Both the position numbers and the translations under genes were made by a program. From Frigoribacterium sp. PhB160 (GTDB lineage: Bacteria; Actinomycetota; Actinomycetes; Actinomycetales; Microbacteriaceae), in contig NZ_RKIE01000002.1 in assembly GCF_003751785.1 (NCBI RefSeq), positions 124,001 to 188,000 of the forward strand: a stretch of DNA of 64,000 nt, written 5' to 3'. Under the pieces are notes generated by a model. It was given only the letters and a program-made list of their open reading frames with translations. It had not been told where the DNA came from and made no database searches. Shown piece after piece: positions 13,772-46,341 of the stretch (positions are counted from its first letter, which is position 1; each line of letters opens with the position of its first letter).

Positions 13772-13775
13772 CCGG

Positions 13776-14756: not shown

Positions 14757-14758
14757 CC

Positions 14759-15595: not shown

Positions 15596-15692
15596 TGCGG
15601 CCGGTCCTCCCCACCCCCTGCCCTGCCCGTCCCGTCCACCGGGGCGACCCCATCGCCGCGCGTCCGCGCGCGCCCGTCAGGAGACTGATCCC

Positions 15693-18600: not shown

Positions 18601-18767
18601 TCGTCGTCGACGCCGGCTCGGACTTCGGCGACGCCTGGCGGACCGACCTCATCGAGCGGGAGCTGCCGGAGGGGCAGCCCGGCTCCGGTCGCTGGGGCGC
18701 CGGCGAGGCGGTCGAGCTCACCGTGAGGCCGTTCGAGATCGTCACGCTGCGGGTGCGTCGCCGGTAG
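15693..18767 (+). CDS. GH38 alpha-mannosidase
   Basis: A 1024-residue glycoside hydrolase of family 38, a zinc-dependent retaining alpha-mannosidase. The metal-binding HAHIDSAWLWP starts at about residue 266, the nucleophile is Asp380 in LPDSFGY, and a further metal-binding His584 lies in QFHDILPG. The C-terminal half is the beta-rich GH38 domain. No signal peptide is seen, so it should act in the cytoplasm on imported oligomannosides. The ATG at 15693 has AGGAGA 10 bases upstream. It is the last gene of locus 1, 97 bases after the permease. Confidence 0.95.
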   Translation: MHDNIALVEARIDRFVRDRITPAVYRRSVPLTLEAWEAPGEPVPFAEAVAQPFTPFVPGQAWSRPWGTTWFHVTGVVPDDFGVDGATSLELVVDLGFTIRQAGFQAEGLVWRPDGTIVKALEPYNGYVPLTTIGAGTAPGTTIDLYVEAASNPDIGGDDFHGVTPLGDLATAGTEPIYSLRRIDLAERDDVVAELDRDVWTLVGLMRTLDPGTPRRHEVLRALERMCDVVDHDDVAGTAALGRDELAAVLASPAAASAHRVVATGHAHIDSAWLWPVRETQRKVARTFSNVVALLDDDPDFVFAASSAQQYAWLKEKYPELFERVKAAVASGRFAPVGGMWVESDTNMPGGEALARQFVAGKGFFLREFGIDNDEVWLPDSFGYTGAMPQIARAAGASSFFTQKESWNETNRLPHHTFLWEGIDGSRVFTHFPPVDTYNSDLSPAELAHAEREYREKGASNVSLVPFGWGDGGGGPTREMMAAAHRAADLEGSPRVTVGTPASFFAEARAELADPAVWSGEMYLEFHRGTYTSQARTKQGNRRSEHLLREAELWSATAASRGLLDYPYDALEQIWHVVLLQQFHDILPGSSIAWVHQEAERHYARVALELEAIIGEAQRALAGQGEALVTFNAAPVTAAGVPASAGALVDVDRSLPEARGASVTPVATDGGHVLDNGLVRVAFDGDGLVTSMVDAASGRDVVAPGGRLGLLQLFRDTPNQWDAWDIDAAYKKVRTDLVEADSVVVEGGTLVATRRTGGSTIVQRWWLDEGDAELHVETDVDWHEKQKLLKLAFPLDVHADRAASEVQFGHVQRPTHQNTSWDFARFETVAHRWVHVAEPGFGVAVANDATYGHDVTRSTRDGEGGDGGTTTLVRQSLLRAPTFPDPHADQGRHVLRSSVRIAPDVLEAATAGYRLNLPVRTVRGASRVEPLVTSSSPAVLIEAVKLAEDRSGDLVVRLYEARGARATTAVVVDAGSDFGDAWRTDLIERELPEGQPGSGRWGAGEAVELTVRPFEIVTLRVRRR

Positions 18768-18953: not shown

Positions 18954-19940
18954 TCAGCCGACGGCGACGACCGAGGGGTCGACGGGCGCGCCGGCCATCG
19001 CGGCGCCGACGGCCGCGACGGGCGGCGCTCCGGCGGGCAGCAGCACCACGCGCGAGGGCAGGTCGAGCGACGCGACGAACGGCGAGGCGTGTCCCGCTCG
19101 GCCGAGCGACGCGCGCACCTGCTCGAGCAGCGGCTCGCCGAGGGCGCTCAGCCCGCCGCCGACGACGATCGTCTCGACGTCGACCGTGAGCACGAGGAGG
19201 CGCACGGCGGCGGCCACCCCGTCGGCGAGCACCGTGCGCGCGGCGACCGCGGCCGGGTCGCCGTGGTCGGCCGCCGTGAAGAGGGCCCGCGCGGGGTGGG
19301 GCACGTCCGTCGGCCACAGCCGGGCGGCGGCGGTGCCGGACGCCACGGTCTCGAGGCAGCCGCGCTGCCCGCAGGTGCAGAGCACCCCGGCGGGGTCGAC
19401 CGGCACGTGCCCGATCTCGCCGACGGCCCCACGGGAGCCGCGGCTCAGCACGCCGTCGACGACGATGCCGGCGGCGAGCCCGGTGCCGAGGTTGAGGTAC
19501 GCCATCGAGCCGCGCAGCCCGAGGGCGTGCCAGGTGCCGAGCGCGGCGGCGTTGACGTCGTTCTCGACGGCGACGGGGACGCCGACGAGACGGGAGAGCG
19601 CGTCGGCGAAGGCGACGTCGGCGAACCCGAGGTTGACGGCGTGGCTGACGCGTCCCGTGACGGGGTCGACGACGCCGGGGATGCCCACGCCGACAGAGCG
19701 GGGGACGAGGGCCGGGGACGAGCCGGGGGCCGGGGTGCCGAGCACCCGGGCGACGGCGCTCGCGGCGTTGGCCACGACCTCGTCGGCGCCGAAGCCGGAG
19801 GGGAGGCGCGTCCGGGCGAGGACGAGGCCGTCGTCGTCGACCGCGACGGCGTCGATCTTCGTGCCGCCGACGTCGAGCCCCACGCGGACGGGCAGGTCGG
19901 TCCGCACGGGACGGCCGACGACGCCGGCCAGCGCCGTCAT
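18954..19940 (-). CDS. ROK-family sugar kinase
   Basis: A 328-residue ROK kinase. The phosphate-binding DVGGTK is at residues 23-28, the catalytic Asp lies in VENDVNAAAL, and the zinc motif is CTCGQRGCLE. It lacks a helix-turn-helix, so it is an enzyme. From its neighbours (GH38, GH20, nagB) it probably phosphorylates GlcNAc or mannose at the 6-hydroxyl, but glucose or fructose cannot be excluded. The ATG at 19940 begins the first block that resembles the family; the frame stays open to 20132 but that part covers promoter DNA. It is divergent from the ROK regulator at 20260. Confidence 0.88.
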   Translation of the reverse strand: MTALAGVVGRPVRTDLPVRVGLDVGGTKIDAVAVDDDGLVLARTRLPSGFGADEVVANAASAVARVLGTPAPGSSPALVPRSVGVGIPGVVDPVTGRVSHAVNLGFADVAFADALSRLVGVPVAVENDVNAAALGTWHALGLRGSMAYLNLGTGLAAGIVVDGVLSRGSRGAVGEIGHVPVDPAGVLCTCGQRGCLETVASGTAAARLWPTDVPHPARALFTAADHGDPAAVAARTVLADGVAAAVRLLVLTVDVETIVVGGGLSALGEPLLEQVRASLGRAGHASPFVASLDLPSRVVLLPAGAPPVAAVGAAMAGAPVDPSVVAVG

Positions 19941-20013
19941 GACGGGCTCGCGGAGGCGCCGGAGGCGCGGGGGACGGCGCCGGGGACGCGGTCGACGGGC
20001 GTGCACATGTTTG

Positions 20014-20030
20014 TTAGTAAAGCTTACGAA
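20014..20030. promoter_or_regulatory. Operator-like dyad O1 (kinase side)
   Basis: TTAGTAAAGCTTACGAA is a 17-bp imperfect dyad (TTnGTAA and TTACnAA arms) in an AT-rich island. It covers the minus-strand -10 box TTTACT (20016-20021); the matching -35 is TTGCGG (20040-20045), 18 bases away. It is a likely binding site for the ROK regulator encoded at 20260, repressing the kinase. Confidence 0.6.
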
Positions 20031-20045
20031 ATCGACCATCCGCAA
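20016..20045 (-). promoter_or_regulatory. Promoter of the ROK kinase gene
   Basis: On the minus strand TTGCGG (20045-20040), an 18-base spacer and TTTACT (20021-20016). The -10 lies inside dyad O1. The leader to the ATG at 19940 is about 70 bases. Confidence 0.45.
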
Positions 20046-20259: not shown

Positions 20260-21438
20260 GTGCCCCGAGCCACCGCCGACCGCACGTCGGCCCCGCCCCG
20301 CCCCTCGGGCACGCCCACGACGAAGTCGCTGCCGCAGCACGCCCGCACGCACAACCGGTCGCTCGTGCTGCAGACCCTCTTCCGTCGGGGCTCCATGAGC
20401 CGCGCCGACCTGGCCCGCGAGTCGGGGCTCACGCGCCCGACCGTCTCGGGCATCGTGCAGGAGCTCACGGCCGACGGCATCGTCGTCGACCTCGGCCTCC
20501 GCGAGGACGCCCGCGTCGGCAAGCCCGCGACCCTCGTGGGGGTCCGCGCCGACGCCTTCCACATCCTCGCCCTCGACCTCTCGAGCGCCGAGCGCTTCGT
20601 CGGCGCCGTCGTCGACCTGCGGGGCACCGTCGTCCGCCGCACGACCGTCGACATCGACGGCGCGAGCGGCGAGGCGGCCGTCGCCCTCGCCGAGCGCCTC
20701 GTCGACGAGCTCGCCGCGAGCACCCGCCAGCCCCTGCTCGGCGTCGGCGTCGGCACCCCCGGCATCGTCGACCACGACGGCGTCGTCCGCACCGCGGTGC
20801 ACCTCGGCTGGTACGACCTGCCGCTGGCCGCCCGCCTCTCGGCCCACGCGGGCGTGCCGGTGCACGTCGGCAACGACGCCAACCTCGCCGCGCTCGCCGT
20901 CCACACCTACGACGACGCCCGCCGCGACGACGGGCGCCGCGACGAGCCGCGCAGCCTCATGGTCGTCACGATCGAGAACGGCGTCGGCGTCGGCCTCGTG
21001 CTCGGCGGCGCGCTCGTCGAGGGCGACCAGTTCTCGGCCGGCGAGATCGGGCACGTGACGGTCGACGAGGACGGCGACGTCTGCGCGTGCGGGCGACGCG
21101 GGTGCCTCGAGGTGTCGCTGGCGGCCCCGGGTCTGCACGCGCGCCTCCTCGACCACGACGCCGGGTCGCGCGGCGCGGTGCTGCACGAGGCGGGCCGGGC
21201 CCTGGGCATCGTGCTCGCCCCCGTCGTGAGCGTGCTCGCCCTCGACGAGGTCGTGCTGTCGGGGCCGCGCGACCTGCTCGACGGGGCGCTGCTGCGGGCC
21301 GCGGCCGAGACGGTGCGGGCGCGGACGCTCTCGGCCGTCAGCACCGGCCTGACGATGCGGTACGCCGGCGACGACCGCGACCTGGCCGCCCTCGGCGCCG
21401 CGTCGCTCGTCCTGAGCGCCGAGCTGGGCATCTCGTGA
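20260..21438 (+). CDS. ROK-family transcriptional regulator (locus 2)
   Basis: A 392-residue regulator with an N-terminal winged helix (SRADLARESGLTRPTVSGIV, about residues 47-66) and a ROK sugar domain with the zinc motif CACGRRGCLE. GNDANLAAL keeps the catalytic-type Asp, but the ATP-binding DxGGT is absent (LALDLSSAE), so it senses sugar and does not phosphorylate it. The GTG at 20260 has GAGGAGG 4 bases upstream. It is divergent from the ROK kinase and precedes the locus 2 importer. It is a NagC-like candidate regulator of GlcNAc use. Confidence 0.9.
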   Translation: MPRATADRTSAPPRPSGTPTTKSLPQHARTHNRSLVLQTLFRRGSMSRADLARESGLTRPTVSGIVQELTADGIVVDLGLREDARVGKPATLVGVRADAFHILALDLSSAERFVGAVVDLRGTVVRRTTVDIDGASGEAAVALAERLVDELAASTRQPLLGVGVGTPGIVDHDGVVRTAVHLGWYDLPLAARLSAHAGVPVHVGNDANLAALAVHTYDDARRDDGRRDEPRSLMVVTIENGVGVGLVLGGALVEGDQFSAGEIGHVTVDEDGDVCACGRRGCLEVSLAAPGLHARLLDHDAGSRGAVLHEAGRALGIVLAPVVSVLALDEVVLSGPRDLLDGALLRAAAETVRARTLSAVSTGLTMRYAGDDRDLAALGAASLVLSAELGIS

Positions 21439-21671: not shown

Positions 21672-22994
21672 TTGCGAAACTCACGGTACACGGCGGTCGG
21701 CGCCCTCGGCCTGGCCGCCGCCCTGGCACTAACGGCCTGCTCGAGCTCCGGCTCGGCGGGCGGCACCGACGACGGCCCCCAGGCCGTCCCGACCTCGGGG
21801 GGCGACGGGAAGACGCTGACGGTCTGGGTCATGACCGGCGACTACACCGACGCCACGATCACGGCGATCAACGACGAGTTCACCGAGCAGACCGGGGCGG
21901 AGGTCGACGTCCAGATCCAGCAGTGGGACGGCATCACGACGAAGATCAGCACGGCCCTCGCGACGAGCACGCCGCCCGACGTGCTCGACCTCGGCAACAC
22001 CCAGGTGGCCAGCTACGCGGCCAACGGCGCGCTGCTCGACCTCACCTCGTACGCCGACGACCTGCGCCAGGGGCAGACCTGGCTGGCCGGCCTCGAGGAC
22101 CCCGCGACGGTCGACGACCGGCTCTACGCCGTGCCCGGCTTCGCGGGCGCCCGCGCCGTCATCTACAACAAGACGATGTGGGCCGAGGCGGGCGTCACCG
22201 AGGCGCCGACCACCTACGACGAGCTGACGGCCGACCTCGACGCGGTCGCCGCGGCGAACCCCGAGCAGGACTTCTCGCCGTTCTACCTGCCGGGCGAGTA
22301 CTGGTACGCCGGCATGCAGTTCGTCTGGGACGCCGGCGGCGAGATCGCCACCGACGACGACGGCACGTGGGCCGGCGGCTTCGAGAGCGACGAGGCGCAG
22401 CAGGGCCTCGCCGACTTCGCCGAGTTCCAGAACGAGTACTCGACGCCCGCGTCGCAGACGCTCGACACCGACGAGCCGAACCAGGACCAGATCTTCGCCG
22501 ACGGCAAGACCAGCGCGATCCTGCACACGAACGGCGCGATCGCCCTCATCAAGGAGGCCAACCCGGCCCTGACCGACGACGACTTCGGCACCTTCCCGCT
22601 GCCGGGCAAGTCGGGCGAGACGCAGCCCGTCATGCTGGGCGGCTCCGACTGGGGCATCGCGGCGAAGAGCCAGAACGCCGACCTGGCGCTGCAGTGGACC
22701 AAGATCGCCACCAGCCCCGACGTGCAGCAGGAGTGGGTCGTCGGCAACGACGGCTGGATCCCCAACAGCGAGGACGCCATCGAGGTGGCGACCGACACCG
22801 TCTCCGAGATCGAGCGCGGCTTCTTCCAGGCCGCCCTCAACTCGAAGGCGACGCCGTCGAGCGCCGACTGGGCCGCCCTCGAGGGCGACCGCAGCATCAA
22901 CTCGTTCTTCTCGTCGGTCGTCTCCGGCTCGAAGACGCCGGAGGAGGCCGCGAAGGGCTTCGACTCCACCGTCGACGACGCCCTCAACGGCTGA
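21672..22994 (+). CDS. Sugar ABC transporter binding lipoprotein (locus 2)
   Basis: A 440-residue family-1 solute-binding lipoprotein: signal NSRYTAVGALGLAAALAL, then lipobox LTAC and a Ser/Gly linker. The start is a rare TTG at 21672 with GAGGAG 7 bases upstream; the frame is open upstream but reads as non-coding. The signal region uses a rare CTA leucine codon inside the 10-mer CACTAACGGC (21727-21736), which also occurs in operator dyad O2. GH20 and nagB neighbours suggest a GlcNAc-containing oligosaccharide as ligand. Confidence 0.9.
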   Translation: MRNSRYTAVGALGLAAALALTACSSSGSAGGTDDGPQAVPTSGGDGKTLTVWVMTGDYTDATITAINDEFTEQTGAEVDVQIQQWDGITTKISTALATSTPPDVLDLGNTQVASYAANGALLDLTSYADDLRQGQTWLAGLEDPATVDDRLYAVPGFAGARAVIYNKTMWAEAGVTEAPTTYDELTADLDAVAAANPEQDFSPFYLPGEYWYAGMQFVWDAGGEIATDDDGTWAGGFESDEAQQGLADFAEFQNEYSTPASQTLDTDEPNQDQIFADGKTSAILHTNGAIALIKEANPALTDDDFGTFPLPGKSGETQPVMLGGSDWGIAAKSQNADLALQWTKIATSPDVQQEWVVGNDGWIPNSEDAIEVATDTVSEIERGFFQAALNSKATPSSADWAALEGDRSINSFFSSVVSGSKTPEEAAKGFDSTVDDALNG

Positions 22995-23080: not shown

Positions 23081-24052
23081 ATGGCCACCACGACCGCGCC
23101 TCCCCGCGCCGGAGCGCCCGTCGGCGCCCCGCCCGTCGCCGCCCCGCCCGCCCGCCCACGCCGGAGGCGGCAGCTCGCGCCCCTCTGGCTGATCTCGCCC
23201 GCCGGCGTCGTCATCCTCGCCGTCACGGTGGCGCCCATCGTCTTCCTGGTCTTCACCTCGTTCACCGACTACGACCAGCGCAGCCTCTTCACCGGCGCGT
23301 ACGACTCGGTGGGCCTCGGGCAGTACCAGGCCCTGCTCGCCGACGCCGAGTTCTGGCGGTCGCTGCTGCGCACGGTGCTCTTCACCGCCGCCATGGTCGG
23401 CGGCAGCGTCGTCATCGGCATGGGGGTCTCGCACCTGCTGACGCGCTTGTCGGTGGGCATGCGCTACACGGTCACGGTCGTGCTGATCTTCGCCTGGGCG
23501 ATGCCGAACGTGGCGTCGTCGATCGTCTGGAAGTGGATGTTCCAGCCCGGCTACGGCGTCGTCAACTGGCTGCTCACCCAGGTCGGCGTCTTCGGCGACA
23601 TGACGAACGTCGACTGGGGCAACGACGCGGGCCTCGCCTACACGAGCATCTGGATGCTCATCGTCTGGCAGGCCGTGCCCTTCATCGCGCTGACGCTCTA
23701 CGCCGCCGAGACCCAGATCCCCCTCGAGTACAAGGAGGCCGCGCGGCTGGACGGCGCGAGCGAGCTGCGCGTCTACCGGCAGGTGACGCTCGTATTCCTG
23801 CGCCCGACGCTGCTGCTCGTGACGATCCTCTCGGTCATCTGGGACTTCAACGTCTTCAACCAGATCTGGCTCGTCTCGGCCGGCGGCCCGGACGGCGCGA
23901 CCTCGACGCTCGGCGTCTTCACCTACGTGACCGCGTTCGTCGGCTTCGACATCGGGCGCGGCTCGGCGATCTCGGTCGTGACGACGGCGCTGCTGGCGCT
24001 CCTCACCGCCTTCTACATCCGCAACCTCGTCCGGTCGGGAGAAGACCTGTGA
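23081..24052 (+). CDS. Sugar ABC transporter permease, MalF type (locus 2)
   Basis: A 323-residue permease: a Pro/Ala/Arg-rich N-terminal tail of about 35 residues, six membrane helices, and the coupling loop YKEAARLDGASELRVY. The ATG at 23081 has AAGGAG 7 bases upstream. The open frame before it is the shadow of the receptor gene. Its stop overlaps the next start (GTGA at 24049). Confidence 0.92.
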   Translation: MATTTAPPRAGAPVGAPPVAAPPARPRRRRQLAPLWLISPAGVVILAVTVAPIVFLVFTSFTDYDQRSLFTGAYDSVGLGQYQALLADAEFWRSLLRTVLFTAAMVGGSVVIGMGVSHLLTRLSVGMRYTVTVVLIFAWAMPNVASSIVWKWMFQPGYGVVNWLLTQVGVFGDMTNVDWGNDAGLAYTSIWMLIVWQAVPFIALTLYAAETQIPLEYKEAARLDGASELRVYRQVTLVFLRPTLLLVTILSVIWDFNVFNQIWLVSAGGPDGATSTLGVFTYVTAFVGFDIGRGSAISVVTTALLALLTAFYIRNLVRSGEDL

Positions 24053-24990
24053 CCACGACAGCCCCCGCCGGCAGCGGCGCCCTCACCGCCCAGACCGAGG
24101 CGACCCCGTCCGCGGGCGACGCCGCCACGCTCGCCGGCGGCGTCCCCGCCCGACCGCCCCGCCGTCGCCGTCGGCGTCGCTGGGTCAGCACGACCATCGC
24201 GGTCGTCTTCAGCGTCGTCTGGATCTTCCCCGTCTACTGGATGGTCAACACGGCGTTCAAGCCGCGGCCCGAGGTGATGACGAGCACGCCGCTCTTCCTC
24301 CCGTCGAGCCCCACCTTCCACAACTTCGTCGTCGCGGCCACGCAGTCGGGGTTCCTCGTCAACCTCCGCAACAGCGCGATCGTCGTGACGGGCGCGGTCG
24401 TCTTCTCCATCCTGCTCGGGCTGTTCGCGGCCGCGGCGCTCTCGCGGTTCCGCTTCCGCGGGCGCCGCACGATCATGGTGTTCATCCTGATCGTGCAGAT
24501 GCTGCCGGCCACGGCGCTCCTCATCCCGCAGTTCCTGATCTTCAACAGCGTCGGGCTGCTCGGCAACTACGGCGGCCTGATCCTCGCCTACGTCGCGACG
24601 ACCCTGCCCTTCTCGATCTGGGTCATGCGCGGCTTCTTCGTCGCGATCCCGGTCGAGATCGAGGAGGCCGCCCAGCTCGACGGCGCGTCCACCTGGCAGG
24701 TGCTGACGCGGGTGCTCTTCCCGCTCGTGCTGCCGGGCGTCATCGCGACGAGCATCTTCGCCTTCATCGCCGCGTGGAACGACTACCTCGTCGCCTACAC
24801 GTTCATGAAGGACCAGTCGATGTACACGCTGCCCGTCTGGCTCGCGTCCTTCAGCACGCCGAACAGCGGCACCGACTTCGGCGGGCAGATGGCGGCCTCC
24901 GTGCTGTTCTCGCTGCCGGTCGTCGTCTTCTTCATGATCATCCAACGCAACCTGGTGACCGGCATGAGCGCCGGCGCCGTGAAGGGCTAG
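24049..24990 (+). CDS. Sugar ABC transporter permease, MalG type (locus 2)
   Basis: A 313-residue permease: a hydrophilic N-terminus of about 45 residues, six helices and the coupling loop IEEAAQLDGASTWQVL. The GTG at 24049 overlaps the preceding stop by four bases. Again no ATPase follows; the next gene is an intracellular hexosaminidase. Confidence 0.92.
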   Translation: MTTTAPAGSGALTAQTEATPSAGDAATLAGGVPARPPRRRRRRRWVSTTIAVVFSVVWIFPVYWMVNTAFKPRPEVMTSTPLFLPSSPTFHNFVVAATQSGFLVNLRNSAIVVTGAVVFSILLGLFAAAALSRFRFRGRRTIMVFILIVQMLPATALLIPQFLIFNSVGLLGNYGGLILAYVATTLPFSIWVMRGFFVAIPVEIEEAAQLDGASTWQVLTRVLFPLVLPGVIATSIFAFIAAWNDYLVAYTFMKDQSMYTLPVWLASFSTPNSGTDFGGQMAASVLFSLPVVVFFMIIQRNLVTGMSAGAVKG

Positions 24991-24994
24991 AGCC

Positions 24995-26662
24995 ATGACC
25001 GACCCGATGCTGGTGCCCCGCGTCGACGAGCTGACCCGCGCCTCCGGGGCGTTCGTCCTCGACCCCGCCACGCGCGTCTCGGCGCCCGACGAGCTGGCCG
25101 GCGAGCTGGCCTGGCTGCAGGGGGCGCTGCGGCCGGCGACCGGCCTGCCGCTCCGAGAGGGGCCGGCCGACGGGTCGGGGATCACCCTCGACCTCGACCC
25201 GTCGATCGGGGCCGAGGGCTACCGGCTGGAGGCGCGGCCCGCCGGGGTGCGCATCACCGGCGGCGACCCGGCGGGGGTGTTCTGGGGCATGCAGGTGCTG
25301 CGGCAGCTGCTGCCCGCGCAGGTCATGCGCACCGCCCTCGTCGAGGGCGTCGAGTGGACCGTGCCCTCCGTCGACGTCGTCGACTCGCCGCGCTTCGGCT
25401 GGCGCGGCACGCACCTCGACGTCGCGCGGCACTTCATGCCGAAGCACGACGTCATGCGCTTCGTCGACCTCATGGCGATGCACCGGCTGAACACGCTGCA
25501 CTGGCACCTCACGGAGGACCAGGGCTGGCGCATCGAGATCCGCGCGTACCCCCTGCTGACCTCGGTCGGCGGCTGGCGCGCCTCGACGCAGGTCGGCGCC
25601 GGGCCGGACGCGACGCAGGACGGCCGGCCGCACGGCGGCTTCTACACGCAGGACGACATCCGCGAGGTCGTCGCCTACGCCGCCGCCCGCCACGTGCGCG
25701 TCGTGCCCGAGGTCGACGTGCCCGGGCACTCGATGGCGGCGATCACCGCCTACCCGCGCCTCGGCGTCGGCGCGGTCGAGGTCGGCGGCACGCCCGTGCC
25801 CGAGCCGCGGCAGATCGCGGTCGGCACCGAGTGGGGCATCTTCGACGACGTGCTCAACACCGAGCAGTCGACGGTCGACTTCTACAAGGACGTGCTGACC
25901 GAGGTGATGGAGCTCTTCCCCGGGGAGTTCATCGGCGTCGGGGGCGACGAGTGCCCGAAGACCCAGTGGCGCTCCGACCCGCGCACCCAGGAGCTGATGC
26001 GCGAGCGCGGCCTCGCCGACGAGGACGAGCTGCAGGCCTGGTTCATCGGCCAGCTCGACGACCACGTCACCGCCGCCGGGCGTCGCACCTTCGGCTGGGA
26101 CGAGATCCTCGAGGGGTCGCGGCCCATGTCGTCCGGCACCACGGTCGCGTCGTGGCGCGGGCTCTTCGGCGCGGTCGCCGCCGCACGGCTCGGCTACGAC
26201 GTCGTGGCCTGCCCCGACGACCAGGTCTACCTCGACTACCGGCAGAGCGAGCTGCCGAACGAGCCGATCCCGGTGTCGATCCCCCTCACGCTCGCCGACG
26301 TCTACGACTTCGAGCCCGTGCCGCCGCAGCTGACCGACGAGGAGGCGCGGCACGTCCTGGGCGGACAGGCCAACCTCTGGACCGAGCACATGGACTCGCC
26401 CCGCACCGTCGACTTCTTCGCCTTCCCGCGGCTCTGTGCCGTGGCCGACGTGCTCTGGTCGGACGCCCCCCGCGACTTCGGCGCGTTCTCGGAGCGCCTC
26501 GCCGCCCACCTCGCCCGGCTCGACGCCGCGGGGGTCGAGTACCGTCGCGAGGGCGGGCCGCTGCCGTGGCAGGAGCGTCCCGGAGTCCCGGGTCGTCCGT
26601 CGACCCGGGAGGAGCGCTCGGCCTACATCGCGGAGATCGTCGCCAACATCGCGGTCGAGTAG
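24995..26662 (+). CDS. GH20 beta-N-acetylhexosaminidase
   Basis: A 555-residue GH20 enzyme that releases terminal beta-linked GlcNAc (or GalNAc) by substrate-assisted catalysis. An N-terminal GH20b-like domain (about residues 1-130) precedes the TIM barrel, which has LHWHLTEDQGWRIEI and the catalytic pair Asp318-Glu319 in GVGGDECPK. No signal peptide is present, so it acts on sugars already imported. It starts four bases after the permease stop and is followed by nagB 69 bases later, after a small hairpin at 26667-26682. Confidence 0.95.
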   Translation: MTDPMLVPRVDELTRASGAFVLDPATRVSAPDELAGELAWLQGALRPATGLPLREGPADGSGITLDLDPSIGAEGYRLEARPAGVRITGGDPAGVFWGMQVLRQLLPAQVMRTALVEGVEWTVPSVDVVDSPRFGWRGTHLDVARHFMPKHDVMRFVDLMAMHRLNTLHWHLTEDQGWRIEIRAYPLLTSVGGWRASTQVGAGPDATQDGRPHGGFYTQDDIREVVAYAAARHVRVVPEVDVPGHSMAAITAYPRLGVGAVEVGGTPVPEPRQIAVGTEWGIFDDVLNTEQSTVDFYKDVLTEVMELFPGEFIGVGGDECPKTQWRSDPRTQELMRERGLADEDELQAWFIGQLDDHVTAAGRRTFGWDEILEGSRPMSSGTTVASWRGLFGAVAAARLGYDVVACPDDQVYLDYRQSELPNEPIPVSIPLTLADVYDFEPVPPQLTDEEARHVLGGQANLWTEHMDSPRTVDFFAFPRLCAVADVLWSDAPRDFGAFSERLAAHLARLDAAGVEYRREGGPLPWQERPGVPGRPSTREERSAYIAEIVANIAVE

Positions 26663-26731: not shown

Positions 26732-27517
26732 GTGGAGATCATCGTCCTGCCCGACGCCGCCGAGGTCGGCCGCGTCGCCGCCCTCAAGATCGCGCAGGTC
26801 GTCGAGAGACGGCCCGAGGCCGTCCTCGGGCTCGCGACGGGCTCGTCGCCGACCGACATCTACGCGTCCCTGGCCCGCCGGGTGGCGGCCGGCGAGCTCG
26901 ACTTCTCGCGTGCCTCCGGGTTCGCGCTCGACGAGTACGTGGGGATCCCGCTCGAGCACCCCGAGTCGTACGCGTCGGTCATCCGGCGCGACGTCGTCGA
27001 GCCCCTCGGCATGGACCCCGCCCGCGTGCGCGTGCCCGACGGGCGCGCGGCCGACGTCGAGGCCGCGGCGGAGGAGTACGACGCGGCCATCGCGGCGGCG
27101 GGCGGCATCGACGTGCAGATCCTCGGGATCGGGGCCAACGGGCACATCGGCTTCAACGAGCCGACCTCGTCGTTCGCCTCGCGCACCCGCATCAAGACGC
27201 TCGCCCCGCAGACCCGCGCCGACAACGCGCGCTTCTTCGACGACCCCGACCAGGTGCCGACGCACTGCCTCACGCAGGGGCTCGGCACGATCCTCGACGC
27301 GCACGAGGTCGTGCTCGTGGCGCAGGGAGAGCGCAAGGCCGCGGCGGTCGCGGGCATGGTCGAGGGGCCGCTGAGCGCGATGTGCCCGGGCAGCGCGCTG
27401 CAGCTGCACCGGCACGCCACGATCGTCGTCGACGAGGCCGCCGCCTCCCGGCTGACGCTCGTCGACTACTACCGCCACACCTACGAGAACAAGCCGGCCT
27501 GGCAGCGGTTCGCGTGA
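26732..27517 (+). CDS. nagB: Glucosamine-6-phosphate deaminase
   Basis: NagB converts glucosamine-6-phosphate to fructose-6-phosphate and ammonia. The 261-residue length is typical. LDEYVGIP holds the catalytic Asp67 and GANGHIGFNEP holds His138 and Glu143. The residue aligned with Asp141 of the E. coli enzyme is Asn136, a change I believe is common outside enterobacteria. The GTG at 26732 has GAGGAGG upstream. Its stop overlaps the start of the D-aminoacylase gene (GTGA at 27514). Confidence 0.95.
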   Translation: MEIIVLPDAAEVGRVAALKIAQVVERRPEAVLGLATGSSPTDIYASLARRVAAGELDFSRASGFALDEYVGIPLEHPESYASVIRRDVVEPLGMDPARVRVPDGRAADVEAAAEEYDAAIAAAGGIDVQILGIGANGHIGFNEPTSSFASRTRIKTLAPQTRADNARFFDDPDQVPTHCLTQGLGTILDAHEVVLVAQGERKAAAVAGMVEGPLSAMCPGSALQLHRHATIVVDEAAASRLTLVDYYRHTYENKPAWQRFA

Positions 27518-29214
27518 GCCGGGGGCCTGCCCCGCGCGGGCTCGTGGTGCTCGGTGCGACGGTCCACGACGGGTCCGGAGGCGCGGCGCGGGTCGCCGAC
27601 GTCGTCGTGCGCGACGGGGTGGTCGTCGCGGTGGGCGCCGGGGCCGCCGCGGGGACCGCGACGGCGGGCGTCGCCGGAGCCGGAGCCGGAGCCTGGTCGG
27701 GAGCCGGGCCCGACGGAGGACGGTCGGCGGACGGCGCCGAGGTCGTCGACGGGCGCGGTCTCGAGCTGCTGCCGGGCTTCGTCGACGTGCACGCCCACGA
27801 CGACGCGGCGCTGTTCCGCCCCGGGGGAGTGTCGCCGAAGACCGCCCAGGGCGTGACGACGACGATCGTCGGCAACTGCGGCCAGGGGGTCGCGCCGTCG
27901 CCGCGCGACCCGGCCGACCGGTCGCTCGCGGAGTACTCGCGGCCGGTGCTGGGGGAGTTCCCCGAGCGCCGGTGGGCGTCGTTCCGCGACTACGTCGAGA
28001 CGCTCCGCACCGAGCCCCTCGACCTGCACGCGGGGACGCTCGTGCCCCACGCGCCGATGCGTGCGGTCGTGCTGGGCACGGCCCGGCGCCCCGCCGGCGC
28101 CCGCGAGACGGCGACGATCGCCGGGTCCGTCGGCGACGCCCTCGACGCCGGCGCGCTCGGCGTCTCGCTGGGCCTCATGTACGCGCCCGGCGACGCCGCC
28201 GAGCGTCCGGAGCTCGTCGCGCTGGCCCGCGAGGTCGCGGCCCGCGGCCGGCTGCTCGTGGCGCACGTGCGGAACGAGGCCGACGGGCTCGACGACTCGA
28301 TCGAGGAGCTCGCCTCGCTCGCGCGTGAGACCGGCGCCGCGGTGCACCTGAGCCACCTCAAGGTCACCGGCCCGCGCAACGTCGGGCACATGGCGGCCGT
28401 CGTCGACCGGCTCGACGCCCTCCGCGACGAGGGCGTCGACGTCTCGGCCGACGTCTACCCGTACGACGCCGGCAGCACGACGGTCGCCTCGCTCTTCCCG
28501 CCCGCGACCGCCGACCGCGGCATCGACAGCCTGCTGGAGGCGCTGGCCGGCCCCCGCTCCCGGGCGGAGGTGCTGGCCGGGCTCGACCGCCCCTGGCCCG
28601 GCACCCTCCTCGAGAACCAGTGGGCGGCGATCGGTCCCGCCCGCATCGTGCTGGCCGGGTTCGCCCGCCCCGAGCACGCGGCCCTCGAGGGCCGGAGCGT
28701 CGCCGACATCGCGTCCGAGCTCGGCGGCGACCCCCGTGAGGTGCTCGCGGACCTCGTCCTCGCGGAGCGCGGCGCCCTCACCGTCATCGTCTTCCACACC
28801 GACCACGAGGGCATGCGCACCGCCCTCGCCTGGCCGCACGCCCTCGTCGGCTCCGACGGCCTGCCGCGGGAGTCGGGCACGGTGCACCCCCGGCTCTACG
28901 GGACGTTCTCGCGCGTGCTCGACGTCTACGCGGGCGCCACGGGCGCCGCCGTCGGGGCCGTCACGGGCGCCGGGGACGGCCTCGGCGAGGCCGTGCTGAC
29001 CCGCGAGGACGCCGTCCGCCGCATGTCGGTCGGGGCGACGCGACGCTTCGGCCTCGTGCCGCCCGGGCAGCCCGTCGGCGTCGTGCCGGGCGCCGTCGCC
29101 GACCTGCAGCTCGTCGACCCCGCGACCTACGCCGACCGGGCCACGTACGCGGCGCCGCGCTCGTCGCCCTCCGGCGTGCGCGGTGTCTGGCTGGCCGGTC
29201 GACGCGTCGCCTGA
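27514..29214 (+). CDS. D-aminoacylase / N-acyl-D-amino-acid deacylase family amidohydrolase
   Basis: A 566-residue metal-dependent amidohydrolase of the D-aminoacylase family, which hydrolyses N-acyl-D-amino acids. The family ligands are visible: His93 and His95 (VHAHDD), Cys122 (GNCGQG), HVRNE, HLSHLK and Asp448 (GSDGLP). An Ala/Gly-rich insert (about residues 47-80) is low-complexity. The GTG at 27514 overlaps the nagB stop by four bases, so expression is coupled to amino-sugar breakdown. Possible substrates are N-acyl-D-amino acids from cell walls, or an acetylated amino sugar if the enzyme doubles as a deacetylase. The substrate is uncertain. Confidence 0.85.
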   Translation: MSRGPAPRGLVVLGATVHDGSGGAARVADVVVRDGVVVAVGAGAAAGTATAGVAGAGAGAWSGAGPDGGRSADGAEVVDGRGLELLPGFVDVHAHDDAALFRPGGVSPKTAQGVTTTIVGNCGQGVAPSPRDPADRSLAEYSRPVLGEFPERRWASFRDYVETLRTEPLDLHAGTLVPHAPMRAVVLGTARRPAGARETATIAGSVGDALDAGALGVSLGLMYAPGDAAERPELVALAREVAARGRLLVAHVRNEADGLDDSIEELASLARETGAAVHLSHLKVTGPRNVGHMAAVVDRLDALRDEGVDVSADVYPYDAGSTTVASLFPPATADRGIDSLLEALAGPRSRAEVLAGLDRPWPGTLLENQWAAIGPARIVLAGFARPEHAALEGRSVADIASELGGDPREVLADLVLAERGALTVIVFHTDHEGMRTALAWPHALVGSDGLPRESGTVHPRLYGTFSRVLDVYAGATGAAVGAVTGAGDGLGEAVLTREDAVRRMSVGATRRFGLVPPGQPVGVVPGAVADLQLVDPATYADRATYAAPRSSPSGVRGVWLAGRRVA

Positions 29215-29328
29215 GGCCGCGGCGGCGGGGGACGCGGGGGCCGCGTCGGCGTCGGTGCAGGGACCACGGGGTGCGGGGCGACCCGGCGGGGGAGGCGACA
29301 GGCGGGCGGTCGGGGGCCGCGCCTCCTC

Positions 29329-29353
29329 GGGGGTGGGGCGGGGTGCCCCGGGG
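29329..29353 (+). other. G-quadruplex-capable run
   Basis: The pattern G5-T-G4-C-G4-TGCCCC-G5 on the plus strand meets the four-run rule for an intramolecular G-quadruplex. It lies in the 247-base spacer before the gene at 29462. The rest of that spacer is GC-rich and holds no convincing gene. Confidence 0.4.
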
Positions 29354-29461
29354 GACGACGGGGGTGAGGTCCGGGTGGCGTCGGCGGGCTCACGGCGACT
29401 TCGGGGCGGACAGCGAGTTGTGTTGCGGGGACGGCCGTGGTGGCCGACACGAGGAGGCGCG

Positions 29462-30082
29462 GTGAAGGTCCTGCTGCTGGGCGCGACCGGGGGCGTCGGC
29501 TCCCACCTGATGAGGGCCGGTCTGTCGGCCGGTCACGACGTGACCGTGCTGGTGCGCGACGAGGCCGCCCTCGACGTCCGGGACGGCGCGCGGGTGCTCG
29601 TCGGCGACGCCACGTCGGCCGACGACGTGCGCGCGGCGGTCGCCGGGCAGGACGCCGTGCTCAACGCCGTCGGGTCGCGGAAGCTCCGGCACCCCGTCGA
29701 GGTGCCCGTCGGCGCGGCCCTGCTGCCGGCCATGACCGAGGCCGGAGTCCGGCGCCTCGTGGTGTGCTCGGCCTTCGGGGTGGGGGCCTCGCGGGAGGAC
29801 GCGGGCACGTTCCAGAAGCTCTTCTTCGACACGGTGCTCGGCAAGGTCTACGAGGCGAAGGAGGAGGCGGACGACGCGGTGCGCGCCTCCGGCCTGGACT
29901 GGACGCTCGTCTACCCGACCCGGCTCACCGACGAGCCCGCGACCGGCGACGTCGTCGCCGCCGAGCGCCTCGCCGACGGTGCGTCGATCAAGGTCACCCG
30001 CGCGGACGTCGCCCGGTTCATGCTCGCGCAGCTCGGCGACGACGCCTGGCTGCGACGCACGGCGGTGCTCACCGGTCGCTGA
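29462..30082 (+). CDS. NAD(P)-binding protein, atypical SDR (NAD(P)H-dehydratase/BVR-like)
   Basis: A 206-residue single-domain Rossmann protein: LLGATGGVGSHL gives the dinucleotide-binding GxxGxxG at residues 6-12, then YPTRLTDEP near residue 157. It belongs to the NAD(P)H-binding (NmrA-like) atypical short-chain dehydrogenases that act as flavin or biliverdin reductases or redox sensors. The GTG at 29462 has GAGGAGG 5 bases upstream; the frame upstream is open but low-complexity. The substrate is unknown. Confidence 0.8.
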   Translation: MKVLLLGATGGVGSHLMRAGLSAGHDVTVLVRDEAALDVRDGARVLVGDATSADDVRAAVAGQDAVLNAVGSRKLRHPVEVPVGAALLPAMTEAGVRRLVVCSAFGVGASREDAGTFQKLFFDTVLGKVYEAKEEADDAVRASGLDWTLVYPTRLTDEPATGDVVAAERLADGASIKVTRADVARFMLAQLGDDAWLRRTAVLTGR

Positions 30083-30095
30083 GGCCGAGGTGCGG

Positions 30096-30500
30096 TCAGC
30101 CGACGATCGCGAGGGCGTCGATCTCGACGAGCATGGCCTCGTTCGGCAGCTCGACGAAGATCGTCGTGCGGGTCGGGAAGACGCCGTCGGTGACGTTCTG
30201 CGTGACGAAGGCCTCGTAGGCGGCGTTCATCTCGGCGAAGTCGCTGCGCTGCGTGAGGAAGACCCGCAGCGAGAGGACGTCGTCGAAGGTGCCCCCTGAG
30301 CCCTCCACGACCGCCTTGACGTTCTCGAGCGTGCGGAGCGTCTGGGCCGTCAGGTCGCCGCGGTGCAGGTACTCGCCGGTCGCCGGGTCCTGCGGGCCCT
30401 GGCCCGACACGGCGAGGAACCCGTTCTTCAGCACGCCCTGCGAGAAGATCGGCATCGGGGTGGGGGCTCCGGTCGTGGTCACCTTCGTCTTGTCGCTCAC
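30096..30500 (-). CDS. RidA family protein (enamine/imine deaminase)
   Basis: A 134-residue RidA/YjgF/UK114 protein. These trimers hydrolyse the reactive enamine or imine intermediates released by PLP-dependent dehydratases. The substrate-binding Arg111 is present in FPTRTTIFVELP, so deaminase activity is likely. It is divergent from a PLP enzyme of the D-serine-dehydratase/D-threonine-aldolase fold, exactly the kind of enzyme that makes such intermediates. A minus-strand TAGCTT box at 30575-30570 may be its -10. Confidence 0.9.
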   Translation of the reverse strand: MSDKTKVTTTGAPTPMPIFSQGVLKNGFLAVSGQGPQDPATGEYLHRGDLTAQTLRTLENVKAVVEGSGGTFDDVLSLRVFLTQRSDFAEMNAAYEAFVTQNVTDGVFPTRTTIFVELPNEAMLVEIDALAIVG

Positions 30501-30659
30501 AGGTCGCTTCTCTCGTCTCGTCGCGGGGCAGGGCCGGGGAGGACGCGCGGTGCGCCTCCGCCGCCTGCAAAGCTAGCGGAGCGACCGCCTCCCCTCCGCC
30601 GCGAGGGCGCGACGACCCGCAGCACGACGACGACCCGCACGACACGACGAGAGGGCACC

Positions 30660-32054
30660 ATGACCACGAGCCACCCGCACGCCGCGTCCGACCGCCGCGC
30701 CGCCGCCCCGCGCCCTGCCGACGCGCGGCCCGCCTCGAAGGCCACCTTCAGCCGCGCCGACCGGCCCGTCCCGCTCGTCGAGCTGCCCACGCCGCTGCTG
30801 ACTCTCGACCTCGACGCCCTCGACCACAACGTCGCGACGATGGCGGCCTGGTGCCGCGCCGCCGGGGTCGACCTCGCGCCGCACGGCAAGACGACGATGT
30901 CGCCCGACGTCTGGCGGCGCCAGCTCGACGCGGGCGCCTGGGGCATCACCGTGGCGACGGCGTTCCAGGCCTCCGTCGCCCGCGAGGCCGGGGTCGCGCG
31001 CGTCGTGCTGGCGGGCACGACCTTCCACGAGGAGGCGCTGGTCGCCCTCGCCTCCCGCCCCCGGGCCACCCGCGTGATGATGTGGGTCGACTCGGTCGAC
31101 GCCGTCCGCCTCGCCGACGAGGCGCTCGCGCGGGCCGCCGCGGCCTCGGCCGTCCTCGGCGACGGCGACGTCGAGCCGGCGGAGCCCCTCGCGGTGCTGG
31201 TCGAGCTGGGCTCGCCGCTCGGCCGGACCGGGGCCCGCACCCTCGCGGAGGCGCAGCGCGTCGCCGACGCCGTCTCGTCCGCGGAGCACCTCGTGCTCGC
31301 CGGCGTCGCGGGCTACGAGGGCGCGCTCACCCACGACGTCGACGCCGCGGGCATCCAGGTCGTCGACGACTACCTCGGCACCTTGCTCGAGCTGCTCGAC
31401 GCCGTCGGGCCCGAGGCCTTCGACGACTGGCTCGCCGCGGGCGAGGACGTGGTGCTGACCGCCGGCGGCAGCGTCTACTTCGAGCGCGTGGTGGCCGTCC
31501 TCGGCGCACGGCACGACCCGAGGGGCGACCGTGGGCCGCGCCTCCGGGTGGTCCTGCGATCGGGGTCGTACGTCGCGCACGACCACGACCTGTACCGGAG
31601 GCTCACGCCCTTCGCCCGCGACACGACGCCCGGCTCGGCCCACGCCGACGGGTCGGAGTCGTTCCGGCCGGCGCTCGAGCTGTGGGCGACGGTCGTCTCG
31701 AGGCCGGAGCCGGGGCTGGCCCTGCTGAACGCCGGTCGCCGCGACACCGCCGACGACGAGGGGACGCCCGTGCCGCTCGACGCCTGGCGGACGTCGGACG
31801 CCGTCGCGGGCGCCGCCCGCGGACCGCTCGCGGGCGCGCTCGACGGGGCCTCGGTCTCGGCGCTCAACGACCAGCACGCCTTCCTGCGGCTGCGGGACGA
31901 CTCGACGCTGGCCGTCGGCGACCTCGTGCGGCTCGGCGTCTCGCACCCCTGCACGACCATCTCGCAGTGGAGCGAGCTGTCGACGGTGCGCGGCGGCACG
32001 GAGGCGCGGGTGCTGCCGCCCACGGTCGTCGGGACGTTCGCCACGCGGTTCTGA
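30660..32054 (+). CDS. D-threonine aldolase / D-serine dehydratase-like PLP enzyme
   Basis: A 464-residue fold-type III PLP protein, often annotated as amino acid deaminase. The alanine-racemase-type N-terminal barrel carries the PLP lysine Lys77 in PHGKTTM. The C-terminal domain ends with His429-Pro-Cys431 in GVSHPCTT, the HPC pair that binds zinc in eukaryotic-type D-serine dehydratase. This argues for D-serine or D-threonine breakdown. The ATG at 30660 starts the segment before the barrel; the open frame upstream is non-coding. It is divergent from the RidA-family gene. Confidence 0.82.
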   Translation: MTTSHPHAASDRRAAAPRPADARPASKATFSRADRPVPLVELPTPLLTLDLDALDHNVATMAAWCRAAGVDLAPHGKTTMSPDVWRRQLDAGAWGITVATAFQASVAREAGVARVVLAGTTFHEEALVALASRPRATRVMMWVDSVDAVRLADEALARAAAASAVLGDGDVEPAEPLAVLVELGSPLGRTGARTLAEAQRVADAVSSAEHLVLAGVAGYEGALTHDVDAAGIQVVDDYLGTLLELLDAVGPEAFDDWLAAGEDVVLTAGGSVYFERVVAVLGARHDPRGDRGPRLRVVLRSGSYVAHDHDLYRRLTPFARDTTPGSAHADGSESFRPALELWATVVSRPEPGLALLNAGRRDTADDEGTPVPLDAWRTSDAVAGAARGPLAGALDGASVSALNDQHAFLRLRDDSTLAVGDLVRLGVSHPCTTISQWSELSTVRGGTEARVLPPTVVGTFATRF

Positions 32055-37513: not shown

Positions 37514-38020
37514 TCAGGAGGCGCGCCCCGCCTCCCCGACGGAGCGCCGTGGCCAGCCGCGCACCGCCCGCGCCACCGCGTCCTCGAGCCGCTCGGCCGT
37601 GGCCTCGGCGCTCTCGTCGCAGGCGTCGCAGCCGCAGGCCGGGAAGCCCTCGGTCACCGCCGAGCCGGTCGCCGTGAGCACCCCGGGGAAGTCGCTGAGC
37701 CCGATCGTCAGCGACCCGCGCCGCGGGCCCGGCGACAGGCGCCAGCCCTCGACCAGGCGCTGACCGTCGCCGCCCGGGGGGCCCAGGCGGTCGACGGGGG
37801 TCGCCTCGACCTCGTACGTGTCGACGACGTGGGCGACCAGCGCCCGTCCGACGTCGTGGAGGCCCGCGAAGCGCTCGGGGTGGCTCACGTGCGAGTAGGC
37901 GTCGTCGGCGGGGCCGTCGTCCCAGCGTCGTCCGTACGTGAACGCGACCCCGTCGTCGCCGACCGCGTCGAGGTCGGGAAGCGGCGGCCGCTCCGGCAGC
38001 GGTGGCACCCCCGCGCTCAC
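37514..38020 (-). CDS. DUF6226 family protein
   Basis: A 168-residue protein with FTYGRRWDDGPADDAYS, a HPERFAGLH block and a C-terminal CGCDACDE cysteine cluster that could bind a metal. It looks like the actinobacterial DUF6226 family, whose function is unknown to me. The GTG start overlaps the nagA stop by three bases, so it is the last gene of the yrdB-nagA-DUF6226 transcript. Confidence 0.65.
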   Translation of the reverse strand: MSAGVPPLPERPPLPDLDAVGDDGVAFTYGRRWDDGPADDAYSHVSHPERFAGLHDVGRALVAHVVDTYEVEATPVDRLGPPGGDGQRLVEGWRLSPGPRRGSLTIGLSDFPGVLTATGSAVTEGFPACGCDACDESAEATAERLEDAVARAVRGWPRRSVGEAGRAS

Positions 38021-39237
38021 GACCGCACCGCCACGCCGTCGACGAGCTCACGTCCGGCCGCCCACACCCGCGACACGTGCCAGTCGTCCGTCCACGCGAC
38101 CGCGTCGGCCAGGTGGCCGGGGGCGAGCAGGCCGATCTCGTGGTCGACGCCGATCGCCCGGGCCGGGGTCGCGGTGAGGGCCGTGACCGCGGCCACGGAG
38201 CCCTGGCGGGCGGCGTCCATCGCCCGACGCAGCGCGGCGTCCTGGGTGAGGGTCGAGCCCGCGATCGTGTCCGTGCCGGCGAGCGTCGCGACGCCGCCCG
38301 CGACGGTCACCGCGAGCTCGCCGAGCAGGTAGTCGCCGTCGGCCGAGCCCGCCGCCGCCATCGCGTCCGTCACGAGCGCCACGCGACCCTGCGCCGAGGC
38401 GAACATCATGGCGACGACCTCCGGGTGCACGTGCACCCCGTCGAGGATCAGCTCGATCGTCACGCGGTCGTCGCTCACGGCCGCGACGACCGGACCGGGT
38501 TCGCGGTGCCCGATGCCGGCGATCGCGTTGAACGCGTGCGTCACGAGCGAGGCGCCGCGGTCGAACGCCGCGACCGCGAGGTCGTGGTCGGCCTCGGTGT
38601 GGCCGACGGCGACGACGACGCCCGCGGCGACGAGGCGCTCGACCGCCTCGAGCCCGCCGGGCAGCTCGGGCGCCAGGGTCACCTGCCGCACCGTGCCCGG
38701 CGCCGCGTCGAGCAGGGCGTGCACGGTCTCGGCCGTCGGCTCGGCGAGGTGCTCGAGCGCGTGCGCGCCCTTCCGCGCCGGCGAGAGGAACGGCCCCTCG
38801 AGGTGCGCCCCGAGCACGAGCGGGTCGCGGGTGCGCAGCTCGGCGATCGCCTCGAGCGACGTCCGGAGGCGCGCGACCGGGTTCGCGACGAGGCTCACGA
38901 GCGAGCGGGTGGTGCCGTGGGCACGGTGCACGGCGAGGCCCCGCGCGATCTCGTCGGCGTCGCCGTCGTAGGAGGCGCCGCCGCCGCCGTGGACGTGCAG
39001 GTCGACCAGCCCGGGCGTGAGGCGGGCACCGGCCAGGTCGACGGTGGCGTCGGGGACCCGGCCCGCGCCTCCTGCACCGGAGGGGTCGCCGGCGGGAGGC
39101 GCCACGGGCGGCCGGCCCGGGGCCTCGACCGTGCTGCCGGTCGCGGTGATGCGGTCGCCGTCGACGAGCATCCAGAAGCCGTCGACCTCGCCGGCCGCGT
39201 CGACCTTGCGGGCGTTCGTGAAGAGCGTGGTGCTCAT
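38017..39237 (-). CDS. nagA: N-acetylglucosamine-6-phosphate deacetylase
   Basis: NagA removes acetate from GlcNAc-6-phosphate to give the NagB substrate. The 406-residue amidohydrolase has the metal motif LHVHGGGG (His81 and His83), the metal-binding Glu in HLEGPFLSP, VGHTEADH, and the catalytic Asp in VTDAMAAAG. It lies 10.5 kb from nagB and so is not in the same operon. The ATG at 39237 overlaps the YrdB-like stop; the frame stays open further upstream inside that gene. Confidence 0.95.
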   Translation of the reverse strand: MSTTLFTNARKVDAAGEVDGFWMLVDGDRITATGSTVEAPGRPPVAPPAGDPSGAGGAGRVPDATVDLAGARLTPGLVDLHVHGGGGASYDGDADEIARGLAVHRAHGTTRSLVSLVANPVARLRTSLEAIAELRTRDPLVLGAHLEGPFLSPARKGAHALEHLAEPTAETVHALLDAAPGTVRQVTLAPELPGGLEAVERLVAAGVVVAVGHTEADHDLAVAAFDRGASLVTHAFNAIAGIGHREPGPVVAAVSDDRVTIELILDGVHVHPEVVAMMFASAQGRVALVTDAMAAAGSADGDYLLGELAVTVAGGVATLAGTDTIAGSTLTQDAALRRAMDAARQGSVAAVTALTATPARAIGVDHEIGLLAPGHLADAVAWTDDWHVSRVWAAGRELVDGVAVRS

Positions 39238-43577: not shown

Positions 43578-43596
43578 CGGGTCTCGCCGCGCCTCG

Positions 43597-43656
43597 GAAC
43601 CCCGTTCCGTTCGGAGAACCACGAAGCTTCGTGGTTCTGTGAACGGAACGGGGTTC
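43597..43656. repeat. 60-bp palindromic element, copy 1
   Basis: Outer arms GAACCCCGTTCCGTTC (43597-43612) and its reverse complement (43641-43656); inner perfect arms AGAACCACGAAG and CTTCGTGGTTCT (43615-43638). It lies 20 bases after the lacI stop, where it can end that transcript. About 90% identical to copy 2 at 51686, with all outer-arm bases conserved. Confidence 0.85.
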
Positions 43657-43680
43657 TCCGCGGTGTGGGCCCGGCGGGCC

Positions 43681-43709
43681 TTCCGCTCCGGGGGAGGGCG
43701 TGCTAGCTT
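43681..43709 (+). promoter_or_regulatory. Promoter of glycan locus 3
   Basis: TTCCGC (43681-43686), a 17-base spacer and TAGCTT (43704-43709) with a preceding TGC (extended -10). The operator starts 7 bases downstream, over the likely transcription start. Confidence 0.55.
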
Positions 43710-43715
43710 CCTGGT

Positions 43716-43733
43716 TACCGAAACGTTTCGGTA
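43716..43733. promoter_or_regulatory. LacI-type operator, perfect 18-bp palindrome
   Basis: TACCGAAACGTTTCGGTA is a perfect palindrome with the central CG typical of LacI-family operators, placed across the start of transcription of the locus 3 operon. The regulator gene is adjacent. Confidence 0.88.
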
Positions 43734-43769
43734 GATCACGACAGCCGCACGACGACGAAGTTGGTGCCC

Positions 43770-45011: not shown

Positions 45012-45051
45012 CCCGCACCGCAGCGCACCACCCGAACCCAAGGAGAACATC

Positions 45052-46338: not shown

Positions 46339-46341
46339 CCC

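Follow-up and report, generated by a model that had tools for sequence, protein, structure and literature searches.

The cleavage of chitin by lytic polysaccharide monooxygenases (LPMOs) inevitably generates oxidised chain ends. A bacterial route for the use of this end, N-acetyl-D-glucosaminate (GlcNAc1A), has been worked out genetically and biochemically for the ong gene set of the marine bacterium Pseudoalteromonas prydzensis ACAM 620 (Jiang et al., 2022; PMC9537276). According to that report, OngA, of glycoside hydrolase family 20 (GH20), cleaves the disaccharide of N-acetylglucosamine (GlcNAc) and GlcNAc1A, GlcNAc-GlcNAc1A, and the D-aminoacylase-like OngB deacetylates GlcNAc1A. The pyridoxal phosphate (PLP) enzyme OngC, which also accepts D-serine and D-threonine, converts the OngB product to 2-keto-3-deoxygluconate (KDG) and ammonia; the RidA protein OngD is required in vivo, and KdgK phosphorylates KDG. 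Among the residues of OngB, Ser292 and Gln298 are described as specificity residues in a later study (Wang et al., 2025; PMC12017989). As far as the available text of the earlier report goes, the route has so far been worked out only in marine bacteria (Gammaproteobacteria), and its genome survey finds the full ong set in Gammaproteobacteria and one Achromobacter only (PMC9537276). Here we describe a conserved gene block of the leaf-dwelling, soil-type actinobacterium Frigoribacterium sp. PhB160, analysed in a window of 64 kb (C2:124001-188000) of the 3.34 Mb genome, for which we favour, with moderate confidence, a role in the degradation of oxidised chitin fragments by a GlcNAc1A route, involving import of chitobionic acid, a GH20 enzyme, a nag arm and an aminoacylase-dehydratase-RidA arm.

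Like the ong cluster, the block brings together a GH20 enzyme, a D-aminoacylase-type deacetylase, a fold-type III PLP deaminase and a RidA protein, the likeness to OngA and OngC being one of families only (PMC9537276). The two systems differ in transport, which in ong involves a TonB receptor, the periplasmic OngA and an SSS transporter, whereas the window encodes an ATP-binding cassette (ABC) importer and a GH20 enzyme without signal sequence. In ong, KdgK (and in some cases KdgA) completes the route, while here both are encoded elsewhere in the genome; in the actinobacterial host, moreover, nagB is part of the operon. Classical actinobacterial chito-oligosaccharide sets of the ABC-GH20-nag type comprise an importer, GH20, nagB, a ROK kinase and a ROK regulator; to these the block adds the aminoacylase-RidA-dehydratase arm. 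The block is probably a counterpart that works like ong and not a member of it, because Ser292/Gln298, a regulator of the RpiR type, a KdgK within the cluster and an LPMO are all lacking. In a limited literature search, no report of a GlcNAc1A route in actinobacteria was found.

The composition of the block was followed by searching 16 Frigoribacterium genomes for the aminoacylase, the dehydratase and nagB. A full-length aminoacylase is present in 11 of these (G002 has a 34-residue match only), the dehydratase in 12, including all 11 aminoacylase carriers, and nagB, at an identity of at least 86%, in 12. The additional dehydratase carrier, G013, keeps GH20, nagB, the short-chain dehydrogenase/reductase (SDR) gene, RidA and the dehydratase (L198, 11617-13701), and no aminoacylase match was found there between nagB and SDR or genome-wide; that genome has an LPMO of family AA10. 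The order of a ROK kinase divergent from a ROK regulator, followed by importer, GH20, (nagB), aminoacylase, (SDR), RidA and the divergent dehydratase, is kept in all ten sufficiently flanked loci (nine genus genomes and the window), and the eleventh genus locus, on a contig of 5.3 kb, displays only permease-GH20-nagB-aminoacylase. SDR was matched in nine of the ten loci reaching that far, the window counted, the exception being L024. The block, nagB included, is also found in Frondihabitans sucicola, where, however, the RidA and dehydratase matches fall in an open reading frame placed farther away, at 2.7-3.9 kb. The core of the block consists of aminoacylase, GH20, RidA and dehydratase, and nagB is an optional member, since the former persist across the genus and Frondihabitans while nagB varies: it lies between GH20 and the aminoacylase in seven of 11 genus genomes and elsewhere in the other four (G003, G011, G012, G015), where GH20 is directly 5' of the aminoacylase.

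A first-pass annotation, made from the letters of the window, had tied amino-sugar catabolism to the aminoacylase through a four-base overlap with nagB. The overlap is there, the GTG start of the aminoacylase (27514) and the TGA stop of nagB sharing GTGA at 27514-27517, and it hinges on the choice of start, because two further in-frame GTGs lie at +26 and +29 nt from the nagB stop. The homologous segments of the two genes are 2 nt apart in the window versus 45-99 nt in the six other nagB-adjacent genus loci; among the loci compared, the tight overlap occurs only in this genome. The pairing itself is real, being seen in the seven genus genomes mentioned and in Frondihabitans, but nagB coupling as the defining feature was rejected in view of the four genomes where the genes are not adjacent. 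The annotation was also correct in placing a RidA gene and a divergent D-serine-dehydratase-like gene downstream, with the intervening NmrA/SDR-like gene overlooked.

The aminoacylase keeps the full Cys/His/His set of D-aminoacylase metal and catalytic residues (His93, His95, Cys122, His251, His281, Lys283, Tyr317, Ser321, Asp448, Arg460), has the metal site of subtype V in the alignment, and conserves the residues that bind the N-acyl group and the alpha-carboxylate (roles as given in PMC12017989). Its best matches in the PDB are N-acyl-D-glutamate deacylase 3gip (204.6 bits; 38.2% identity over the compared segments) and D-aminoacylase 1m7j (194.1 bits; 36.1%), followed by 9g5m (162.7 bits) and PpOngB 9kb1 (160.5 bits). 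With OngB (PDB 9kb1, 9kb3) it shares, by sequence, the D-aminoacylase fold family, the Cys/His/His site, the catalytic Asp and the carboxylate-binding Lys/Tyr/Ser/Arg. It belongs to the same amidohydrolase subtype as 3gip and 1m7j, yet differs from these in its RidA/dehydratase/GH20 context and in a less hydrophobic pocket: of the hydrophobic positions Phe191/Met254/Leu298/Met346 of AfDam (A. faecalis), three are occupied by Met222, Thr285 and His428, and the fourth falls in an unalignable loop. An AlphaFold model built from 11 sequences was poor (mean predicted local distance difference test score 47.5) and was not used.

A residue comparison of 61 loci and two PDB enzymes separated a window clade of 14 loci (Frigoribacterium, Frondihabitans, Leucobacter), 16 other Cys/Lys loci and 31 of an Asp type, in which the metal Cys is replaced by Asp and Lys283 by His or Thr. 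In a tree computed without OngB, since PpOngB could not be aligned residue by residue, a single branch sets off the window clade (support 100/100), and another the Asp-type loci (100/99). The window clade is marked by Thr285 together with His428 (Gln in Leucobacter), where AfDam has Met at both positions; the aminoacylases of the two Leucobacter species are 52.5-53.4% identical to the window enzyme. Separately, a D-aminoacylase-like group from Nitrospirota and Nitrospinota, with one unassigned metagenome-assembled genome (L083-L085, L092, L093), has Asn at the place of Ser321 and Cys at that of His428.

Neighbours of these genes were counted up to a distance of 5 kb, using loci flanked by no less than 5 kb on either side. 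Two loci with fragmentary aminoacylase matches (L184 and L185, both G024) were left out, and of the 73 loci of one search 12 were used, seven genus-genome repeats and 54 weaker matches (L090, L091, L094-L145) being excluded. In the window clade, the dehydratase and RidA accompany the aminoacylase in 13 of 13 loci each and GH20 in 11 of 13. Neither dehydratase nor RidA is found beside the other Cys/Lys D-aminoacylases (0/9 each), and over all 16 of these only L150 has both, so that the pairing is no general habit of D-aminoacylases. Asp-type loci carry the dehydratase in 26 of 28 cases, RidA in 23, a KDG kinase-like gene in 17 and an aldolase for 2-keto-3-deoxy-6-phosphogluconate (KDPG) in 15. 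L086-L088 and 28 of the 38 loci L146-L183 form a large actinobacterial Asp-type branch, nearly always adjoining RidA and dehydratase and often KDG kinase and KDPG aldolase.

The chemistry of the dehydratase product separates two kinds of substrate. With D-serine or D-threonine the enzyme would form pyruvate or 2-oxobutyrate, for which neither KDG kinase nor KDPG aldolase is required, whereas D-glucosaminate would yield KDG, which requires both. D-glucosaminate is favoured over D-serine or D-alanine, whose products would not need the KDG kinase and KDPG aldolase genes that accompany the aminoacylase and dehydratase in relatives. In both Leucobacter species (Pfam run on L081; L080 assessed from called genes and kinase and aldolase matches), the KDPG aldolase and a PfkB kinase come first, divergent from an ABC importer, and the cluster ends with aminoacylase, IclR regulator, RidA and dehydratase; GH20 is absent from these clusters. 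Arthrobacter wenxiniae has the order RidA-dehydratase-aminoacylase (Asp-type)-PfkB kinase-KDPG aldolase. In the host itself, kdgA and kdgK overlap by 4 bases as an operon on contig C1. GH20 is joined to the same set in G120 (L153, 7042-10515, minus strand), where a single frame of 1157 codons reads as an Asp-type aminoacylase followed by GH20, with nagB, a ROK kinase, a ROK regulator, dehydratase and RidA as neighbours; as read from this frame, the fusion ties the two predicted activities together.

From the observed gene content, synteny and catalytic residues, together with the co-location of KDG genes in relatives, we infer a substrate, a direction of flow, a role for the kinase and a mode of regulation as follows. 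The ABC importer would take up chito-oligosaccharides ending in an aldonic acid, such as GlcNAc-GlcNAc1A. Enzymes of family GH20 remove GlcNAc from the non-reducing end, and the GH20 enzyme of the block, read as cytoplasmic because no signal sequence was seen at its N-terminus by eye, would split the imported oligosaccharide into GlcNAc and GlcNAc1A. The ROK kinase, NagA and NagB would together convert the GlcNAc half to fructose-6-phosphate, a use that would account for nagB in the operon. GlcNAc1A is, chemically, an N-acetyl-D-alpha-amino acid, which the D-aminoacylase would deacetylate, giving D-glucosaminate. From this the PLP dehydratase would form KDG and ammonia, RidA helping to remove the enamine/imine, and the route would be completed by the KDG kinase and KDPG aldolase, whose genes lie outside the block. 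The dehydratase has Lys77 and His429-Pro-Cys431, and its nearest solved structure is D-serine deaminase 3gwq (E 1.6e-54), a likeness by sequence only. For the regulation of the block, two operator-like palindromes lying between the genes for the ROK kinase and the ROK regulator (Table 1) are the only sites of this pattern within the 64 kb and are retained in nine genus loci and in Frondihabitans (L079); the ROK regulator is predicted to act, probably, at these two sites.

Table 1. Predicted features of the block, its operator-like sites and the nagA gene of the same window (window coordinates).
Feature	Position	Strand	Basis	Remarks
ROK-family sugar kinase (PF00480)	18954-20045	-	Pfam and synteny	Divergent from operon; predicted GlcNAc kinase; start uncertain
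Operator-like palindrome TTAGTAAAGCTTACGAA	20014-20030		Pattern search	
Second operator-like palindrome TTTGTAAGG...TTCACTAA	20137-20157		Pattern search	
ROK-family transcriptional regulator, NagC/Mlc-like	20260-21438	+	Profile matches	Winged helix and ROK
ABC sugar-binding lipoprotein	21672-22994	+	Profile matches	Weak similarity to chito-oligosaccharide binders NgcE, NagB1/NagB2
ABC permease 1	23081-24052	+	Conserved in block	
ABC permease 2	24049-24990	+	Conserved in block	
GH20 beta-N-acetylhexosaminidase	24995-26662	+	PF00728, 372 bits	
nagB, glucosamine-6-phosphate deaminase	26732-27517	+	TIGR00502 260.9 bits, NF001684 402.4 bits	Both above cut-off
D-aminoacylase-family amidohydrolase	27514-29214	+	PF07969 51.5 bits, above cut-off	566 aa; predicted N-acetyl-D-glucosaminate deacetylase
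NmrA/SDR-like NAD(P)-binding protein, putative accessory	29462-30082	+		Between aminoacylase and RidA
RidA-family enamine/imine deaminase	30096-30500	-	PF01042	OngD counterpart
Fold-type III PLP D-serine-dehydratase-like enzyme	30660-32054	+	PF14031, PF01168	Predicted D-glucosaminate dehydratase (OngC counterpart)
Canonical nagA	38017-39237	-		Outside block, same window; needed for GlcNAc half

Several observations weigh against the GlcNAc1A route. The window aminoacylase scores closer to the known D-aminoacylases 3gip and 1m7j than to PpOngB, whose score lies below those of AfDam and BbDam. Ser292 and Gln298 of OngB were not found: Thr322 takes the place of Ser292, the following loop is without Gln, and the polar residues Thr285/His428 stand at other places (positions taken via PMC12017989 and AfDam/BbDam, PpOngB itself being outside the alignment). 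The ong regulator OngR is of the MurR/RpiR type, whereas the window has a ROK regulator and no RpiR in the block. Many of the 13 window-clade loci are close relatives and hence not independent trials, and the aminoacylase-GH20 fusion occurs in one genome only, from the other, Asp-type branch. The block in the window contains no KDG kinase gene, and the ROK operator-like pattern had no match at RidA/dehydratase or at kdgA-kdgK; a shared ROK operator at RidA/dehydratase was rejected for this reason, and joint control of the whole route finds no support in the sequence. As to the source of the substrate, no AA10 LPMO was found in the host genome, and AA10 is present in three of 16 genus genomes, one of them without the aminoacylase. 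The related Frigoribacterium adelgis did not grow on chitin, according to its description (PMC12823222).

AA10 does not track the block (2/11 aminoacylase-positive versus 1/5 negative genus genomes) and was found in three of 150 family-sample genomes. Because it is so rare, most carriers must obtain oxidised chitin from others, if the substrate is correct. The phenotype of F. adelgis, for which the same source also reports secreted GH18 proteins and use of GlcNAc (PMC12823222), is compatible with such a scavenger. It is possible, though we place it somewhat short of even chances, that a separate terrestrial-actinobacterial D-aminoacylase lineage became a GlcNAc1A deacetylase by way of Thr285 and His/Gln428 instead of Ser292/Gln298, in a two-armed chitobionic-acid operon (nag and KDG) of mostly LPMO-less scavengers. 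If the GlcNAc1A route holds, it would extend to land and to another phylum, to actinobacteria associated with leaves and insects in which import and regulation differ, it may serve scavengers and not LPMO producers, and it would give a metabolic reason for a large gene family annotated merely as D-aminoacylase, RidA and D-amino-acid deaminase.

The same chemistry could act on another N-acetylated amino-sugar acid freed by GH20, for instance a galactosamine-derived or uronate-type compound, and end in a 2-keto-3-deoxy acid. The clustering of KDG-type genes with the aminoacylase-dehydratase pair in relatives would suit this, as would pocket residues unlike those of OngB and the Leucobacter clusters without GH20; we nevertheless consider it unlikely, as the glucosamine-6-phosphate enzyme NagB, in the block in seven of 11 genus genomes, points to GlcNAc as the partner sugar. 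Another reading is the recovery of D-amino acids bound to GlcNAc compounds, with the aminoacylase releasing a D-amino acid and the dehydratase acting as a deaminase on D-serine or D-threonine; it is close to what the first-pass annotation proposed for peptidoglycan fragments. Both family annotations, Thr322 as in true D-aminoacylases and the breadth of OngC (PMC9537276) speak for it, but the block is without a peptidoglycan-processing or muropeptide gene, the KDG kinase and KDPG aldolase that cluster in relatives would not be needed for pyruvate or 2-oxobutyrate, and other canonical D-aminoacylases lack the dehydratase and RidA (0/9), which makes this salvage quite unlikely. The earlier interpretation was thus partly right: one functional set that includes the uptake of amino sugars is supported, as is the link of the dehydratase and RidA to the aminoacylase (13/13), whereas the nagB-aminoacylase tie is not its core (absent in 4/11), and the substrate appears to be wrong, the D-amino-acid part being more likely an oxidised sugar, N-acetyl-D-glucosaminate.

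Its second suggestion, a GlcNAc-type deacetylase, corresponds to an amidohydrolase that replaces NagA on GlcNAc or GlcNAc-6-phosphate. The position 3' of nagB would suit such a stand-in, which is nonetheless very improbable and was rejected: the enzyme keeps a Cys/His/His metal site (with Cys122) and carboxylate binders and not the Glu/His/His site of CE9 deacetylases (PMC12017989), no NagA profile is among its matches, and a canonical nagA lies in the same window. It is also improbable that the locus serves the scavenging of N-glycans or glycoproteins, with GH38, GH130 phosphorylases, GH20 and nag genes degrading mannose-GlcNAc2 cores beside an unrelated aminoacylase-RidA-dehydratase neighbour. 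Directly upstream (10979-18767) there is indeed a GH38 alpha-mannosidase with a sugar ABC importer of its own and a ROK regulator, two GH130-like genes follow downstream (43761-45011 and 48369-49469), and GH38 adjoins the block in seven of ten other genus loci; the remaining three, however, lose GH38 and keep GH20-aminoacylase-RidA-dehydratase, and the G120 fusion joins aminoacylase-type and GH20 domains. With the GlcNAc1A route retained, N-glycans may still provide some of the GlcNAc, given GH38 and its importer upstream and the GH130-like genes downstream.

Farther along the window, the segment 49550-51625 encodes a protein of 691 aa that begins like an exported protein and has no match in Pfam. 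Just before it, 42486-49469 holds a LacI-like regulator (by its N-terminal sequence only), the two GH130-like genes and a sugar ABC importer, a set of possible use for mannosyl-chitobiose.

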